A stretch of DNA of 32,395 bases from a virus: positions 1-32,395 of IMG/VR virus record IMGVR_UViG_3300037852_000123. One strand, 5' to 3'. Of the stretch, positions 1,092 through 23,944 are shown piece by piece (the stretch's first letter is position 1; every line of letters starts with the position of its first letter). The translations under genes and the position numbers were made by a program. The notes under the pieces are model-generated. The model ran no database searches, had not been told where the DNA came from, and saw nothing but the letters and a program-made list of their open reading frames with translations.

Positions 1092-3680
1092 TCAGCTTTT
1101 CCAAATAAATCGAATGATGCGAGGGCTCTGCGGATCTGTGATCCGAATCCATTCAGCCTGATTGATAAAGCGAATCGGCTCCTCAATGCTGGTCAAAACA
1201 ATCGGCGCTGGTGCATCCACCAAGACGACATGCGGATCATTGCCGATGAGCGATATCACGACGCCAGGCGGCGGCACGATATTCAGCCGCGGAATGACCG
1301 CGAGGTTCGGGAATATATCGACCTGCGGCCAGCGCCGCTTGAAGTAGGTGGGCTCCACGAATGGCGGCAGACCCGCCTTGATCAGCACCGCGACGTTTGC
1401 CGGCAAATCCGGCTGCGTCCATTTGCGAATCGTGAGCTGCGGATCGATCGGCAGCGGCGGCACTCTGACCGGCAGATTCACCGCAATGTTCGGCCAGATA
1501 TCGATCTGCGGCGCGACTCGGCGCGTAAGCTGCGGCTCGATGGGCGGCGCAATCGCGATTTGCGGCGGCGCTTGCGCTGCGAGATTCGGGAAAATCTCGA
1601 TCTGTGGCGCGAGTCTGCGCGTCAGCGTCGGATCAATCGGCGGCGATATCAGAACCGGCGTCGGCGCCAGTGGCGCGGCGATATTCGGATAGACATCGAT
1701 TTGCGGCGGATAGCGTTTTGCTATCTGCGGCTCGGTGAACGCTCGAGGTATCAGCGGTGCTTCGACCGGCTCACGGATCGCGACATTGACCGGCTGATCA
1801 ATCTGCGGCGGCAGGCGCTTCGTCGTCGTCGGATCAATCGGCGCCGGTATCGAAATTGCCTGAACCTGACGGACGGCAATGTTGGGTGCAATATCCGGCG
1901 CAGTCCATTTGTGCGCGGATGGCTGCCAATCGAGCGGCGCCGACGGTACATATGTCAGTAACGGCGCGTTTACCGCGACGTTTGGATACAGATCAATCTG
2001 CGTCGCCGGCTTTCGCGTGAAAGTCGGATCCAGATACTCGCCGGCAAGCTGTATGGTCTGGAACTGGACCGCGATGTTCGGCGCGAGGTCTATCTGCTGG
2101 GCTGGACGCTTATAGTAGGTCGGATCAGCATCTTGGAAAACTATGAGCGCATTGATGGCGGATGCCGCCAACGCAATATTTGGCGCAAAGTCGATTTGTG
2201 GCGCTGGGCGCTTCGCGATCTGCGGTTCAATCGGCGGCGGCGCAACGCGACTCGGCGGTTGTTGCTGTATCGCCAGATTCGGAAACAGATCCGGCTGCAC
2301 CCATTTAGCGGGCGGCAGCTGGTCAAAGTCCGAAACGTTGCCTATGGCCGGCGCGAGCATCAACGCGACATTCGGCAGAATGTCGATTTGCGGCGGTAGG
2401 CGCCTGTAGTAGGTCGGCTCGACGACCTTGGCAATAGTCAGCGCGTTGACGTTTGGCGCTGCAGGCAGTACCGCCAGATTCGGAAAAACATCGACCTGGG
2501 GCGCCTTGCGCAGCCACGGGTTTACATAGAACGCTGCCCGGGTAATTGGCTGCGGCGGTGCGAACGCCGCTAGATTCGGAAAGACATCCAGCTGCGGCGG
2601 CAGACGTTTGGTAAGCGTCGGCTCGACAACACCTCTTGGCAGTAACGGCGACTCACCTGGTTCGCGGATCGCAACGTTGACTGACAGATCTATCTGCGGC
2701 GCCGAACGCTTGGCTGTCGTCGGATCAATCGGCGCAGGAATCGGCGTCTGCGGCGGAGGCGTCGTGGTGGCCGCGATATTTGGCGGCAGATCGATCTGCG
2801 GTGGCGCTCGTTTGATGAGCTGCGGATCGAGATATTCACCGGCCAGCTGTATGGTCTGTAAATTGACCGCAATGTTTGGCGATAGATCAATCTGCGGCGC
2901 GAGCCGCTTGTAGTATGCCGGCTCGGTCAGCGTGGCTGGCACATAGACGACCGAAGGTACCGCGGCGGCGACGTTCGGGAAAACATCCGCCGGCGTGAAT
3001 CGCTTATTCGCGACGTTGACGTAAAGCGGCGCGCGAATTACCGGAACAGTCTCAGTCTGCGCGGCCGGATTCGGAAAGATATCCGGCGGCGGCGATCCGC
3101 GCTTGGCGAGCGTCGGCTCGATGGGCGGCGGCGGTATGAACGGCGGCGGCGGCGAATTGGCCGCAATGTTCGGCAGCTGATCGAGCTGCTGCTGCGGCCT
3201 GGGATAGAACTTGGTGTCGTAATCCTGCGCGATGACCAGCGCAGCCGGACCTTGGGCCTGCACCGCCACGTTCGGCACAATATCCATCTGCGGCGGTTTC
3301 CGCGGATAGATGTGAGGCGTCGTCTCTTGCTGAATTATCAGCGCATCGGCCGCATGAGCTGCGACCGCGACATTGACCGGCTGATCGATCTGCGTGCCAT
3401 GCTTCCAGGGCACATTGACGATGAGCGGCGCGCGCCCAACAATTACCGTTGCGGCCGCGGCGATCGCGAGAATCGCGACATTGACGGCTAGATCAAGCGC
3501 GCCGCCTTGATACCTGCGATATGTCGTCCAAGTGACGCAATCGCTAGATGCATTGAATGGGATCGGGACTGGTGGATCAATGTAGCTGATCCAGGGTAGG
3601 TCGATGCCGGCCGCGTTGTCCTGCGGCACCCACCCTAAATCATCAGAGAGTGGATTCCCATTGTTCTGAGTGATTGCCAC
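1092..3680 (-). CDS. Large repeat protein, 862 aa, about 23 imperfect units
   Basis: Most of this protein is a chain of imperfect units of roughly 30-45 residues, each carrying a core like KRxxPQIDxxPNIAV. I count about 23 cores by eye. Linkers are Pro-rich and often contain (I/V)(D/E)P(T/Q) just before the core. The final 60 or so residues drop the repeat and look like a capping domain (VISLIGNDPHVVLV..., ending RIIRFIWKS). There are no Cys clusters, signal peptide or membrane spans. I do not know the family. Its place between probable virion genes suggests an extended fibre, spike shaft or multivalent binding protein. The start lies 1 nt after the previous stop, so translation is probably coupled. 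Confidence 0.65.
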   Translation of the reverse strand: MAITQNNGNPLSDDLGWVPQDNAAGIDLPWISYIDPPVPIPFNASSDCVTWTTYRRYQGGALDLAVNVAILAIAAAATVIVGRAPLIVNVPWKHGTQIDQPVNVAVAAHAADALIIQQETTPHIYPRKPPQMDIVPNVAVQAQGPAALVIAQDYDTKFYPRPQQQLDQLPNIAANSPPPPFIPPPPIEPTLAKRGSPPPDIFPNPAAQTETVPVIRAPLYVNVANKRFTPADVFPNVAAAVPSVVYVPATLTEPAYYKRLAPQIDLSPNIAVNLQTIQLAGEYLDPQLIKRAPPQIDLPPNIAATTTPPPQTPIPAPIDPTTAKRSAPQIDLSVNVAIREPGESPLLPRGVVEPTLTKRLPPQLDVFPNLAAFAPPQPITRAAFYVNPWLRKAPQVDVFPNLAVLPAAPNVNALTIAKVVEPTYYRRLPPQIDILPNVALMLAPAIGNVSDFDQLPPAKWVQPDLFPNLAIQQQPPSRVAPPPIEPQIAKRPAPQIDFAPNIALAASAINALIVFQDADPTYYKRPAQQIDLAPNIAVQFQTIQLAGEYLDPTFTRKPATQIDLYPNVAVNAPLLTYVPSAPLDWQPSAHKWTAPDIAPNIAVRQVQAISIPAPIDPTTTKRLPPQIDQPVNVAIREPVEAPLIPRAFTEPQIAKRYPPQIDVYPNIAAPLAPTPVLISPPIDPTLTRRLAPQIEIFPNLAAQAPPQIAIAPPIEPQLTRRVAPQIDIWPNIAVNLPVRVPPLPIDPQLTIRKWTQPDLPANVAVLIKAGLPPFVEPTYFKRRWPQVDIFPNLAVIPRLNIVPPPGVVISLIGNDPHVVLVDAPAPIVLTSIEEPIRFINQAEWIRITDPQSPRIIRFIWKS
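1285..3525 (-). repeat. Degenerate tandem coding repeats in the 862-aa protein
   Basis: The DNA shows a recurring pattern on the + strand (gaca/t-tcgat-ctgcggcg-type blocks) that encodes the PQIDxxPN core on the minus strand. Unit length varies and the linkers diverge, so the array is old and held at the protein level. It is not a recent exact duplication. Confidence 0.7.
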
Positions 3681-21236: not shown

Positions 21237-21653
21237 ATGAGCCGATTTACGAAAATAGGCGCCGCCGGCGCGAAACTCGCGAGTGAGGCCACCGAGTGGG
21301 CTGCTGTCCTCGATAATACGACCCAGCTCATCTGGACCGTCAAGGAAACCGGGCGGCTCACTTGGAAGAAAGCCCAGACCGCAGTCAAGAAGCTCAAGAC
21401 CGCGGGGTTTGAGGACTGGCGCTTGCCGACCGTGGAGGAGCTCTTTCTCCTGGCCGATCGCACCAAATATTCACCGGCGATCGATACCGCATTCTTTCCG
21501 GATTGCAAATCCGAATGGTATTGGACCAGCACACCGGCAGCGTACTCGCCGGGCGTTTACGCCTGGAGTGTCGACTTCAGCCTCGGCAATGCCGACTGGA
21601 GCCACCAGGCCAACGGCTATTTCGTCCGCGCGGTGCGCGCCAGTCAGTCATAG
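21237..21653 (+). CDS. DGR target protein 1, DUF1566-type, 138 aa
   Basis: The protein matches the DUF1566 (Lcl C-terminal-like) pattern: TTQLIWTVKETGRLTWKKAQ, FEDWRLPTVEELFLLAD, IDTAFFPD, then a YWTST strand and the C-terminal variable repeat ending YFVRAVRASQS. This fold, related to C-type lectin-like DGR targets, presents variable residues on a ligand-binding face. VR1 covers about residues 101-136, so almost the whole C-terminus is diversified. There is no signal peptide. AAGGGG lies before the ATG at 21237, and the same frame upstream is a shadow of the parB-like gene. The reverse transcriptase, accessory protein and template lie within 1.5 kb downstream. Confidence 0.9.
   Translation: MSRFTKIGAAGAKLASEATEWAAVLDNTTQLIWTVKETGRLTWKKAQTAVKKLKTAGFEDWRLPTVEELFLLADRTKYSPAIDTAFFPDCKSEWYWTSTPAAYSPGVYAWSVDFSLGNADWSHQANGYFVRAVRASQS
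21538..21644 (+). repeat. DGR variable repeat 1 (VR1), 107 bp
   Basis: VR1 aligns without gaps to the template repeat at 22716-22822. By hand I find 13 differences, and all of them fall on adenines of the template (changes to G, C or T). The last 22 bp are identical to TR and VR2, followed by CAG in both VRs and GAG in TR, the expected IMH/IMH* contrast. Confidence 0.93.
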
Positions 21654-21688
21654 GTTTTTTGGGATTCTTCAGAAAAAGGGGAAATTGA

Positions 21689-22228
21689 ATGTCGGTCAAT
21701 CCATCTAGGGTCACGCTTCATATAGAAGCGGAGACGACGAGAGACCTGCTCGCGGCGGCGTCAGATCTATGCCAGGGCCACGCGAAGCTACCAGAGGCAA
21801 AGCTGCAGGTCCTCGAGATCCCCGCCGGTCCGCGCTTCCATATCGAAGGCGACACCGTCCTCGATCGCACCACGGGCCTCATGTGGTCACGTGAAAGCGT
21901 ACCGGGCGGAACAATGAAATGGGCGCCAGCGCAGGAGGCCTGTAAAGCACTGAAACTCGGCGGCCAGTCCGATTGGCGTCTGCCGACAATCCGCGAGCTG
22001 CTCACCCTGGTCGACTACGATCGGCATGATCCAGCGATCGACACCGACGCCTTTAAATGCGAATCGAACTACTACTGGACGTCGACGCCGCTCCACAGCT
22101 CGCCGGGCGTTTACGCCTGGGGTGTCAGCTTCGGCCTCGGCCATGCCGACTGGAGCGCCCAGGACTACGGCACTTACGTCCGCGCGGTGCGCGCCAGTCA
22201 GGGCTTTGACCTTTGGCACGCGAAATAG
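21689..22228 (+). CDS. DGR target protein 2, DUF1566-type, 179 aa
   Basis: This is a paralogue of target 1 with about 40 extra N-terminal residues (VTLHIEAETTRDLLAAASDL...). Its DUF1566 core is closer to the consensus: TTGLMWSRESVPGG, WAPAQEACKALKLGGQSDWR, LPTIRELLTLVDYD, then YYWTSTP. VR2 covers about residues 137-170, and nine more residues (QGFDLWHAK) follow it. AAGGGG lies 8 nt before the ATG. No signal peptide or membrane span is visible, so display would need assembly into a virion or another export route. The gene lies between target 1 and avd, all in the same direction. Confidence 0.9.
   Translation: MSVNPSRVTLHIEAETTRDLLAAASDLCQGHAKLPEAKLQVLEIPAGPRFHIEGDTVLDRTTGLMWSRESVPGGTMKWAPAQEACKALKLGGQSDWRLPTIRELLTLVDYDRHDPAIDTDAFKCESNYYWTSTPLHSSPGVYAWGVSFGLGHADWSAQDYGTYVRAVRASQGFDLWHAK
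22099..22198 (+). repeat. DGR variable repeat 2 (VR2), 100 bp
   Basis: VR2 aligns without gaps to TR 22723-22822, with 16 differences that are all at template adenines. Upstream of 22099 the similarity stops with a non-adenine mismatch, so VR2 is 7 bp shorter than VR1 at its 5' end. Eight of its substitutions are also present in VR1. Confidence 0.93.
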
Positions 22229-22232
22229 ATAG

Positions 22233-22661
22233 ATGAGCTACACGCTGCCGCCCATCGTGAAAGCTGCGGAGCGCCTCTTGCTCGAGATCGAGCAGGCCGT
22301 TCGCAGATTTCCGCGGTATCACAAATACACGCACGGAACGCGGCTACGCGAGCAGGCGATGGCGATCGCGCAGCTTACGCATCGAGCGTGGCGCGATCAG
22401 GCACATCGCGGAATGTGGACGACGAAGCTAGTTTGGGCGATCGATGATCTGAAGCTAAGCCTGCAGCTGGGCAAGCAAATCGAGGCCTTCGTAAGCTTCG
22501 CGCAATTCGAAATGCTGGCGCGCCTATGCGCCGAGCTGGGCAAGCAGTGTGGAGGGTGGCGAAAGCAGCAGCACCGAGACAGCCAGAATGGAGCCGGCGA
22601 TCGCCGGCAACAGCGAGCTGAGATACTGAGTTCCCAAGCCGCCCCTGTGGCAAATCCATGA
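22233..22661 (+). CDS. avd: DGR accessory variability protein, Avd/four-helix bundle
   Basis: The sequence has the 23S-rRNA-intervening-sequence/Avd-like pattern of four amphipathic helices: LPPIVKAAERLLLEIEQAVR, FPRYHKYTHGTRLREQAMAI, a third helix with WAIDDLKLSLQLGKQIEAFV and a fourth with FEMLARLCAELGKQ. Avd forms a basic pentamer that binds the reverse transcriptase and TR RNA and is needed for mutagenic homing. The protein has 142 residues, slightly longer than the Bordetella phage Avd, with a basic, low-complexity C-terminus (RKQQHRDSQNGAGDRRQQRA). Its stop overlaps the start of the reverse-transcriptase ORF as ATGA. Confidence 0.88.
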   Translation: MSYTLPPIVKAAERLLLEIEQAVRRFPRYHKYTHGTRLREQAMAIAQLTHRAWRDQAHRGMWTTKLVWAIDDLKLSLQLGKQIEAFVSFAQFEMLARLCAELGKQCGGWRKQQHRDSQNGAGDRRQQRAEILSSQAAPVANP

Positions 22662-23944
22662 TGAAGCCGTGCCACCAAAGCGGTCGCGCGGCTGGGTCAA
22701 AAGCGCCTGGGATAACAGCGTACTCGCCGGGCGATTACGCCTGGAATGTCAACTTCAACAACGGCAATGCCAACTGGAACAACCAGGACAACGACAATTA
22801 CGTCCGCGCGGTGCGCGCCAGTGAGTATCACGGTGAACCCAATTTTCGCGCCCTCCACGCGGCTTGGCGACGAGCTCGGCGCGGCAAGAAGCCGAGCCCC
22901 AATCAGCTGACATTCGATGCGCAATGGATCGATGGGCTCCTGGGGCTCGAGCGACAACTGGCCTCAAGTACCTGGCAACCGCGGCCGACGACCTGTTTCA
23001 TCGCGACCGCGCCCAAAGCCCGCGAAATCCATGCGCCGGACTTCGCGGATCGCATCGTGCATCATTGGGTCGTGCCGCAACTAGAGGCCATCTACGAGCG
23101 GACCTTCATTTTCGACAGCTTCTCGAATCGCCGCGGCAAAGGGACGCACGCCGGCGTCGATCGCCTGCAGGCCTTCATGCGACAGGTTCAGAGCGGCCAG
23201 GGCGGTGGCTGGTATCTGCAGCTAGACATCAAGAACTTCTTCAATCGGATCCACCGTCCGACACTCTACGGCCTGCTGAAGGCCCGGATGGAGCGGCATG
23301 GCCTGTCGGTAGAATGCCAGCGCACTGTACACGCCCTGCTGCGACGATCGCCGCTCGAGGCCGGCGTCACGTTCGCTTGCACATGGCAGGAACGCGCGCG
23401 AGTTCCACAGCATAAACGCCTGGATCAGGCTCCGGCTGGCTGCGGCATTCCGATCGGCAATCTCTCGAGCCAATTCTTCGCGAACGTTTACCTCGATCAG
23501 CTCGACCAATTCGTAAAGCGAACTTTGCGTGCGCCACGGTACCTGCGATATGTCGATGATTTCGTCTTAGTCCATGAAAGCCGCGAGCAGCTCCAAACCT
23601 GGTTGGTCGAGATTGAGAGGTTCTTACGCGATGCGCTCAAGCTTGAGCTGAAGGCCGCAATCAAACTGCGCCCGTTGGAATGCGGGTGTGATTTCTTGGG
23701 CTACATGATTTATCCGACGCACGTTGTTGTTCGCCGGCGTGTCATTGGACATTGTTGCGCCAAACTTCACGATTGGCAGCGCCGTCATATCCGCTATGGC
23801 CGCGTCGTGGCCAACCGCGAGGCCTTAGATCAGCTCCGATCAGTCTGCGCGAGCTATGGCGGTCATTTCTCCCACGCTCAGAGTTGGCGATTGCGCAGGC
23901 GCATCGACAAGCGATTCCAATGGCTGCGGAGCTTGGATCTATGA
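22658..23944 (+). CDS. DGR reverse transcriptase with TR-encoded N-terminus
   Basis: DGR reverse transcriptases copy TR RNA into cDNA with random bases opposite adenines. The catalytic motifs are intact: LQLDIKNFF (Asp190), the DGR-type motif GIPIGNLSSQFFANVYLDQL (residues 263-282) and YVDDF (Asp300-Asp301), then LKAAIKLRPLECGCDFLGYM. Upstream, FRALHAAWRRARRGK is the usual DGR-RT beginning. Unusually, the first 55 or so codons before it are the TR itself, read in the same frame as the variable repeats. The ATGA overlap with avd supports ATG 22658. The only later in-frame candidate before the core is GTG 22811, inside the TR and without a ribosome site. Length is 428 aa. Confidence 0.93.
   Translation: MMKPCHQSGRAAGSKAPGITAYSPGDYAWNVNFNNGNANWNNQDNDNYVRAVRASEYHGEPNFRALHAAWRRARRGKKPSPNQLTFDAQWIDGLLGLERQLASSTWQPRPTTCFIATAPKAREIHAPDFADRIVHHWVVPQLEAIYERTFIFDSFSNRRGKGTHAGVDRLQAFMRQVQSGQGGGWYLQLDIKNFFNRIHRPTLYGLLKARMERHGLSVECQRTVHALLRRSPLEAGVTFACTWQERARVPQHKRLDQAPAGCGIPIGNLSSQFFANVYLDQLDQFVKRTLRAPRYLRYVDDFVLVHESREQLQTWLVEIERFLRDALKLELKAAIKLRPLECGCDFLGYMIYPTHVVVRRRVIGHCCAKLHDWQRRHIRYGRVVANREALDQLRSVCASYGGHFSHAQSWRLRRRIDKRFQWLRSLDL
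22716..22822 (+). repeat. DGR template repeat (TR), 107 bp
   Basis: The TR has 29 adenines by hand count, most in AAY (Asn) or GAY (Asp) codons that can mutate to many residues but not to stops. Its 3' end holds a GC-rich block with the palindrome GCGCG-gtg-CGCGC (22806-22818), also present in both VRs. The TR lies in frame within the reverse-transcriptase ORF. Its 5' edge is set by identity to VR1 (CAGCGTACTCGCC). Confidence 0.93.

Follow-up and report, generated by a model that had tools for sequence, protein, structure and literature searches.

IMG/VR virus record IMGVR_UViG_3300037852_000123, analyzed over its whole length of 32,395 bases (the window), carries a diversity-generating retroelement (DGR) whose template repeat (TR) is located inside the open reading frame (ORF) of the reverse transcriptase (RT). 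Comparison with relatives revealed a structured RNA directly 5' of the TR, here named R1, a one-base difference between the initiation of mutagenic homing sequences of the variable repeats (VRs; IMH) and of the TR (IMH*), and a linear motif behind the VRs. It is very likely that this DGR is functional, that its RT is read through the TR, and that R1, IMH, and the motif have the roles proposed below. The DGR is genuine, and the phage that carries it has an integrase and is temperate.

The first-pass annotation described a complete DGR with two tandem DUF1566-type targets, each ending in a VR, followed by avd, the TR, and an RT gene. The assignment as a DGR was confirmed by the protein families, the RT motifs IGNLSSQ and YVDD, and the adenine-only divergence of TR and VRs, and both targets indeed contain PF07603 (formerly DUF1566) with the VR at the C-terminus. 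The gene order and coordinates were also correct, except that the TR is not placed between avd and the RT gene but sits inside the RT ORF, and its frame there matches that in the targets.

Adenine-specific divergence and activity

Re-alignment bore out the annotated pattern of TR/VR differences. The TR (22716–22822) and VR1 (21538–21644) differed at 13 of 107 positions, all 13 being among the 29 TR adenines (P = 3.7e-9 by chance), while the comparison of TR 22723–22822 with VR2 (22099–22198) showed 16 mismatches over 100 nt, all at TR adenines (27 in this segment; P = 9.7e-12). Non-adenine differences were absent in the 207 aligned positions. The replacement bases were G (6), T (4), and C (3) in VR1 and G (9), C (4), and T (3) in VR2. 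Since 28 of the 29 TR adenines occupy codon position 1 or 2, their distribution is that expected of a template tuned for amino acid change. Further VRs were not found in the 32.4-kb record. Distant extra VRs occur in several members of the clade, and in one relative (L032) a third Lcl_C target is located about 6 kb upstream of the RT (145–606).

The DGR had also been considered probably active, which was supported for the family. VR variation with a fixed TR was observed in two related phages from two different metagenomes (L060 and L066), which are near-identical over 4.8 kb, with about 46 differences. Of these, 32 are within the two VRs, and 32/32 face TR adenines; the TRs are identical. Target diversification therefore takes place in nature in DGRs whose TR is within the RT frame. 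A second candidate pair (L068 and L072) was dropped, since its "0 upstream differences" proved to be a contig-edge artefact.

The template repeat is located within the open RT frame

In the ATGA at the junction of the two genes, the start codon of the RT and the stop codon of avd overlap, and from there the frame continues across the TR to the RT domain. A search of viral contigs with an RT alignment yielded 131 relatives, of which 80 were kept; the avd stop was located regardless of the RT frame in 79 loci, and 50 representatives with RT identity below 90% were used for detailed comparison. Automatic assignment of VR frames by the longest ORF and motif-based target calling were unreliable in GC-rich DNA and were excluded from the counts. 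In 76 of the 79 loci, the ATGA shared the frame of the RT core, and no stop intervened. The RT frame was open in all 50 representatives, while the other two frames were open in 0/50 and 4/50 (87 and 59 stops). The same arrangement was found in 8/8 held-out bacterial genomes of the Arenimonas host family, which had not been used in making the rules. Four representatives (L061, L013, L086, and L095) use another frame across the TR, but compensating length changes keep it open; therefore, it is the open frame that is conserved, not the peptide. Ribosomes likely translate through the TR, and the peptide it encodes is likely tolerated. In one relative (L005, 4359–6083), avd and RT form one open frame without a stop at the usual ATGA, which could be either an Avd-TR-RT fusion or a sequencing frameshift. 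An exact search of IMG/VR with a 30-mer of the TR gave no match, and a plasmid search returned only matches below 60% identity.

A conserved RNA adjoins the template repeat at its 5' side

Synonymous diversity decreases from about 0.5 to 0.15–0.34 in the last avd codons, with no drop at the start of the RT core, and the RT leader varies nucleotide-wise rather than by codon position. A hidden spacer RNA inside the RT core was considered and rejected because synonymous depression was absent there. The consensus fold of the 50 representatives (RNAalifold), about 140 nt in length, comprises hairpin P0 within avd and a multi-branched domain closed by helix P1. The 5' strand of P1 is in avd and the 3' strand in the RT leader, and P1 encloses hairpin P2, the avd stop and RT start, and helix P3. 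The RT start codon is thus inside R1, and the G of its ATG and the next base are paired in P3.

In the alignment, paired cells make up 96.4%, covariation scores 0.463 compared to at most 0.110 in slid controls, and 18 of 24 base pairs are changed on both sides. Protein constraint cannot cause the covariation in P1 because this helix joins avd codons to the RT leader. The covariance model scored 109 bits (E = 5.8e-25) on the window, whose own row was in the training set, and identified R1 in 8/8 held-out genomes with an E-value of 3e-22 or better. A distant DGR (L015), whose RT is 42% identical, contains R1 in the same place adjoining the TR (E = 6.5e-8). Among 297 genomes of the host family, exactly the 10 with the RT contained R1, one copy each, beside the RT. 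No Rfam family, including RT-15 (RF03018), matched R1 in the window or nine other loci of the clade. Likewise, no consensus structure was found 3' of the TR in 44 relatives.

Target-site signals

The TR ends with CCRGTGAG in 46/46 scored cases, and four further TRs read GTCGGTGAG. The VRs end with CCRGTCAG, and the discriminator C is present in 87 of 89 VRs. In the window, G22823 of the TR is opposed to C21645 of VR1 and C22199 of VR2. The one-base difference between IMH and IMH* is kept across the clade. It is followed behind the VRs by a linear 15-base motif with the consensus TAATTGGCCTTTTGG; conservation drops to background level at position 16 (89 VRs).

In BPP-1, a hairpin behind the VR is needed and was proposed to be a general requirement (PMC3240598). 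The region behind the VRs was scanned for hairpins over 32 and 78 nt, in free and fixed register, against shuffled sequences, and the BPP-1 hairpin was recovered as a control. Hairpins with a GRNA loop were found behind 0/89 VRs, and stem lengths were as in shuffled sequence.

Proteins of the DGR

The RT contains IGNLSSQ, corresponding to the (I/V/L)GxxxSQ motif of the DGR clade, and YVDD. It matched phrog_1423 (E = 5e-96) from residue 63 onwards, as well as RVT_1, and its nearest relative in PDB, both by sequence (8ub7, E = 3e-33) and by fold, is the DGR RT of BPP-1. Residues 1 to about 62 are encoded by the leader, the TR, and the spacer. In the AlphaFold model, the core is confident, and residues 1–59 have a predicted local distance difference test (pLDDT) score below 50. 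Residues 23–53 match Lcl_C (E = 0.0013). The model of target 2 (mean pLDDT 78.5) was most similar among solved folds to the C-terminal domain of Legionella Lcl (8q4e), followed by C-type lectins; together with PF07603 in both targets, this places the VR at the C-terminus of a C-type-lectin-fold protein.

Cassette layout and genomic neighborhood

The coordinates of all features are listed in Table 1. HerA-like ATPase and integrase genes are present downstream of the cassette. The targets are small stand-alone genes beside exonuclease VIII-, AAA-, and ParB-like genes, and for this reason they are not part of a tail gene; the gene set around the targets of L032 is similar. Elsewhere in the window, the minus strand encodes an 862-aa protein (1092–3680) composed of a degenerate repeat (~KRxxPQIDxxPNVAV) and no match in Pfam or PHROG. 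Given the neighboring Vps10/BNR-type protein and gp77-like fibre-tail adaptor, these are probably fibre genes.

Table 1. Features of the DGR cassette in the window
Feature	Position	Strand	Description
Target gene 1	21237–21653	+	138 aa; Lcl_C (former DUF1566), C-type-lectin-like; VR at C-terminus; PF07603, E = 4.9e-31
VR1	21538–21644	+	13/13 differences to TR face TR adenines
VR1 downstream target site	21645–21662	+	IMH discriminator C at 21645; linear motif TCATAGGTTTTTTGG at 21648–21662
Target gene 2	21689–22228	+	179 aa; Lcl_C; VR at C-terminus; PF07603, E = 1.7e-33
VR2	22099–22198	+	16/16 differences to TR face TR adenines
VR2 downstream site	22199–22216	+	IMH discriminator C at 22199; weaker, shifted motif copy GGCTTTGACCTTTGG at 22202–22216
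avd (accessory variability determinant)	22233–22661	+	phrog_3206 (Avd), E = 6.3e-22; PF22296 (bAvd), E = 4.7e-8, under the Pfam cut-off
Structured RNA R1	22584–22719	+	Directly 5' of TR; covariation in 50 relatives; no Rfam match
R1 helix P0	22589–22593/22608–22612	+	
R1 helix P1	22633–22639/22705–22711	+	
R1 helix P2	22641–22644/22648–22651	+	
R1 helix P3	22660–22662/22696–22698	+	
R1 inner P3	22666–22668/22690–22692 and 22671–22672/22686–22687	+	
ATGA overlap	22658–22661	+	RT start codon on avd stop codon, within R1
RT ORF	22658–23944	+	428 aa; RT domain from ~22844; IGNLSSQ and YVDD
TR	22716–22822	+	Within RT ORF, in the VR frame; followed by IMH* discriminator G at 22823

Comparison with known DGRs and their RNAs

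The DGR of BPP-1 (mtd-avd-TR-brt) shares with the window the presence of Avd, the SQ motif of the RT, adenine-specific TR/VR differences, the order target-avd-TR-RT, the location of the VR at the C-terminus, and an IMH differing from IMH*. However, three traits set the variant described here apart from the BPP-1 model, namely where the template is located, on which side of it the conserved RNA stands, and what signal marks the target site. In BPP-1, the TR (2887–3020) is outside brt (start at 2742) and ends 144 nt before it, and the Rfam RNA RF03022 (Phage_DGR) covers 2750–2882 between TR and brt, that is, 3' of the TR. In the window clade, the TR is inside the RT ORF and the RNA is on the 5' side; a separate spacer RNA of the Phage_DGR type between TR and RT was found neither in the window nor in the clade. 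The VR of BPP-1 is followed by an 8-bp hairpin with a GAAA loop, whereas none of the 89 VRs of the window clade had a GC-rich hairpin or cruciform of this type (7–10 bp, GRNA loop), nothing exceeded chance, and the linear motif is present instead.

The TR-in-RT arrangement itself is not new. In the Pseudoalteromonas phages ACA1 and ACA2, with a VHML-type DGR, the RT was reported to carry the translated TR as an N-terminal extension, an arrangement called uncommon (PMC10612066, 2023), and TRs overlapping the end of the RT ORF form group 3 of DiGReF (2012; PMC3521204). As in the window, the annotated RT start of ACA1/ACA2 overlaps the avd stop, but the RT belongs to another clade (~32% identity) and the target is a tail antireceptor; in the window clade, the arrangement is a clade-wide constant and linked to R1. 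ACA1 (L133) is related to VHML-kind DGRs of Aeromonas and Vibrio phages, in which the TR is upstream of the RT frame (L128, 2679–2798; L129, 2694–2808; L131, 2699–2813), while in ACA1 it is inside. In DiGReF group 3, the TR likewise overlaps the 5' end of the RT ORF, but this is an annotation class defined without a test of translation or RNA, and its authors judged the arrangement irrelevant to the mechanism. As far as the surveyed literature goes, the clade-wide conservation, the open-frame test, and the R1 RNA are new.

The RNAs of the RT-n series were judged from Rfam matches only. In phages LPPA56, Cruim01, and Magia, the end of RT-15 is at most 3 bases away from the TR start. The DGRs with RT-15 (these three and QDWS) resemble the window in that a structured RNA ends at the start of the TR. 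Its layout is also similar to that of R1, with a hairpin in the end of avd and a P1 enclosing P2, the ATG, and P3, and in 4/6 loci the ATG within the RNA is in frame, with no stop across the TR. At the same time, R1 and RT-15 do not match each other at E = 0.5 in either direction, the RTs are ~37% identical, the TR of the RT-15 DGRs is read in a threonine-rich frame, and Magia lacks the ATGA overlap. Being on the same side of the TR and similar in layout, R1 and RT-15 may be akin. Since RT-15 ends at the TR start in those phage DGRs, it is probably a 5' DGR template RNA. RT-15 was observed at L115 (3635–3825), L116 (3648–3840), and L117 (3673–3855), as well as at L130, L132, and L134; these are phages of Pseudomonas, Burkholderia, and Shewanella. 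In a Patescibacteria metagenome-assembled genome, another Rfam RNA, LOOT, directly follows a DGR-like RT (L019, 6163–6280).

Proposed mechanism and alternatives

Since the RT would be translated from the avd-overlapping ATG straight through the TR, a single avd-TR-RT RNA could be both the RT message and the source of the template. RT-Avd would copy the TR with errors opposite adenines. R1 would mark the 5' limit of the template by stopping reverse transcription and/or docking RT-Avd; limitation at the 5' end is the most likely role by analogy with BPP-1, where a motif at the 3' end of avd was reported as a reverse-transcription terminator (PMC12875486), and R1 may also dock RT-Avd. The cDNA would then replace the 3' ends of the VRs, directed by IMH and the downstream motif, and the targets would act as small stand-alone C-type-lectin-fold binders. 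The N-terminal peptide of the RT encoded by the TR would be a tolerated, disordered passenger.

Several points weigh against this scheme. Three of the 79 loci have no in-frame ATGA, one being frameshifted (L091), one lacking a recognised junction (L104), and one being the apparent avd-RT fusion (L005). In the window, two pairs of P0 are broken and the motif downstream of VR2 is weak. The evidence for translation through the TR and for any role of R1 comes from sequence comparison, and we infer the activity of the window phage itself from its intact genes and adenine-only divergence.

The RT could instead be translated from an internal start near the 3' end of the TR, the upstream open frame being incidental. 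GTG 22811 is in frame in the window, GTG or TTG follows the TR in 17/48 relatives, and the leader is conserved as RNA rather than as peptide. However, no internal start is shared: an ATG between TR and RT core is present in 2/48 representatives, and a start with a Shine-Dalgarno-like site in 6. The RT frame open in every representative, the other frames nearly always closed, and the compensated frame changes across the TR also make this explanation improbable. The location of the RT start codon in R1, with its G and the next base paired in P3, would suit R1 being only a translational regulator or coupling element for avd and RT rather than a template RNA. This is unlikely: the end of R1 coincides exactly with the TR in all relatives and even in the distant L015, whose RT starts behind the TR; three other phages have RT-15 reaching up to the start of their TR; and in BPP-1, termination of reverse transcription has been reported for the motif at the 3' end of avd.

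That the N-terminus of the RT functions as a peptide, for example, by binding Avd or the target, is suggested by its presence in all relatives and its resemblance to the target C-terminus. We consider it highly improbable: the four representatives with another TR frame have unrelated sequence there, the codon-position pattern is unlike that of a selected protein, and the segment is modeled with low confidence. Decay of the DGR, now inactive in the window phage, would agree with the weak motif behind VR2, and one assembly cannot show turnover, but RT, Avd, and both targets are open, the RT motifs are intact, and non-adenine differences are absent, making decay very improbable.

The location of the RT start codon inside R1 means that R1 folding and RT initiation may exclude each other. 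It is possible, although doubtful, that such an RNA is a switch. Folded R1 would bury the RT start and leave the RNA as template; ribosomes translating avd would unfold R1, so that RT is made and no copying occurs; and RT-Avd bound to R1 would repress its own production and reserve the RNA for mutagenesis. In this reading, R1 and RT-15 would be two members of a broader group of DGR template RNAs on the 5' side, to which the 3' spacer RNA found in BPP-1 does not belong.

Implications

The mechanism of DGRs is known mainly from BPP-1, where the target is marked by a hairpin behind the VR and the functional RNA is located on the 3' side of the TR. In a large clade of phages and prophages with evidence of activity, neither feature is detectable; a 5' RNA and a linear motif are present instead, and the template is inside the RT. 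Such elements will be mis-annotated by tools for DGR finding and gene calling that expect the TR to be intergenic or the RT to have a standard start. The clade offers a compact alternative model system and suggests what the Rfam family RT-15 is.

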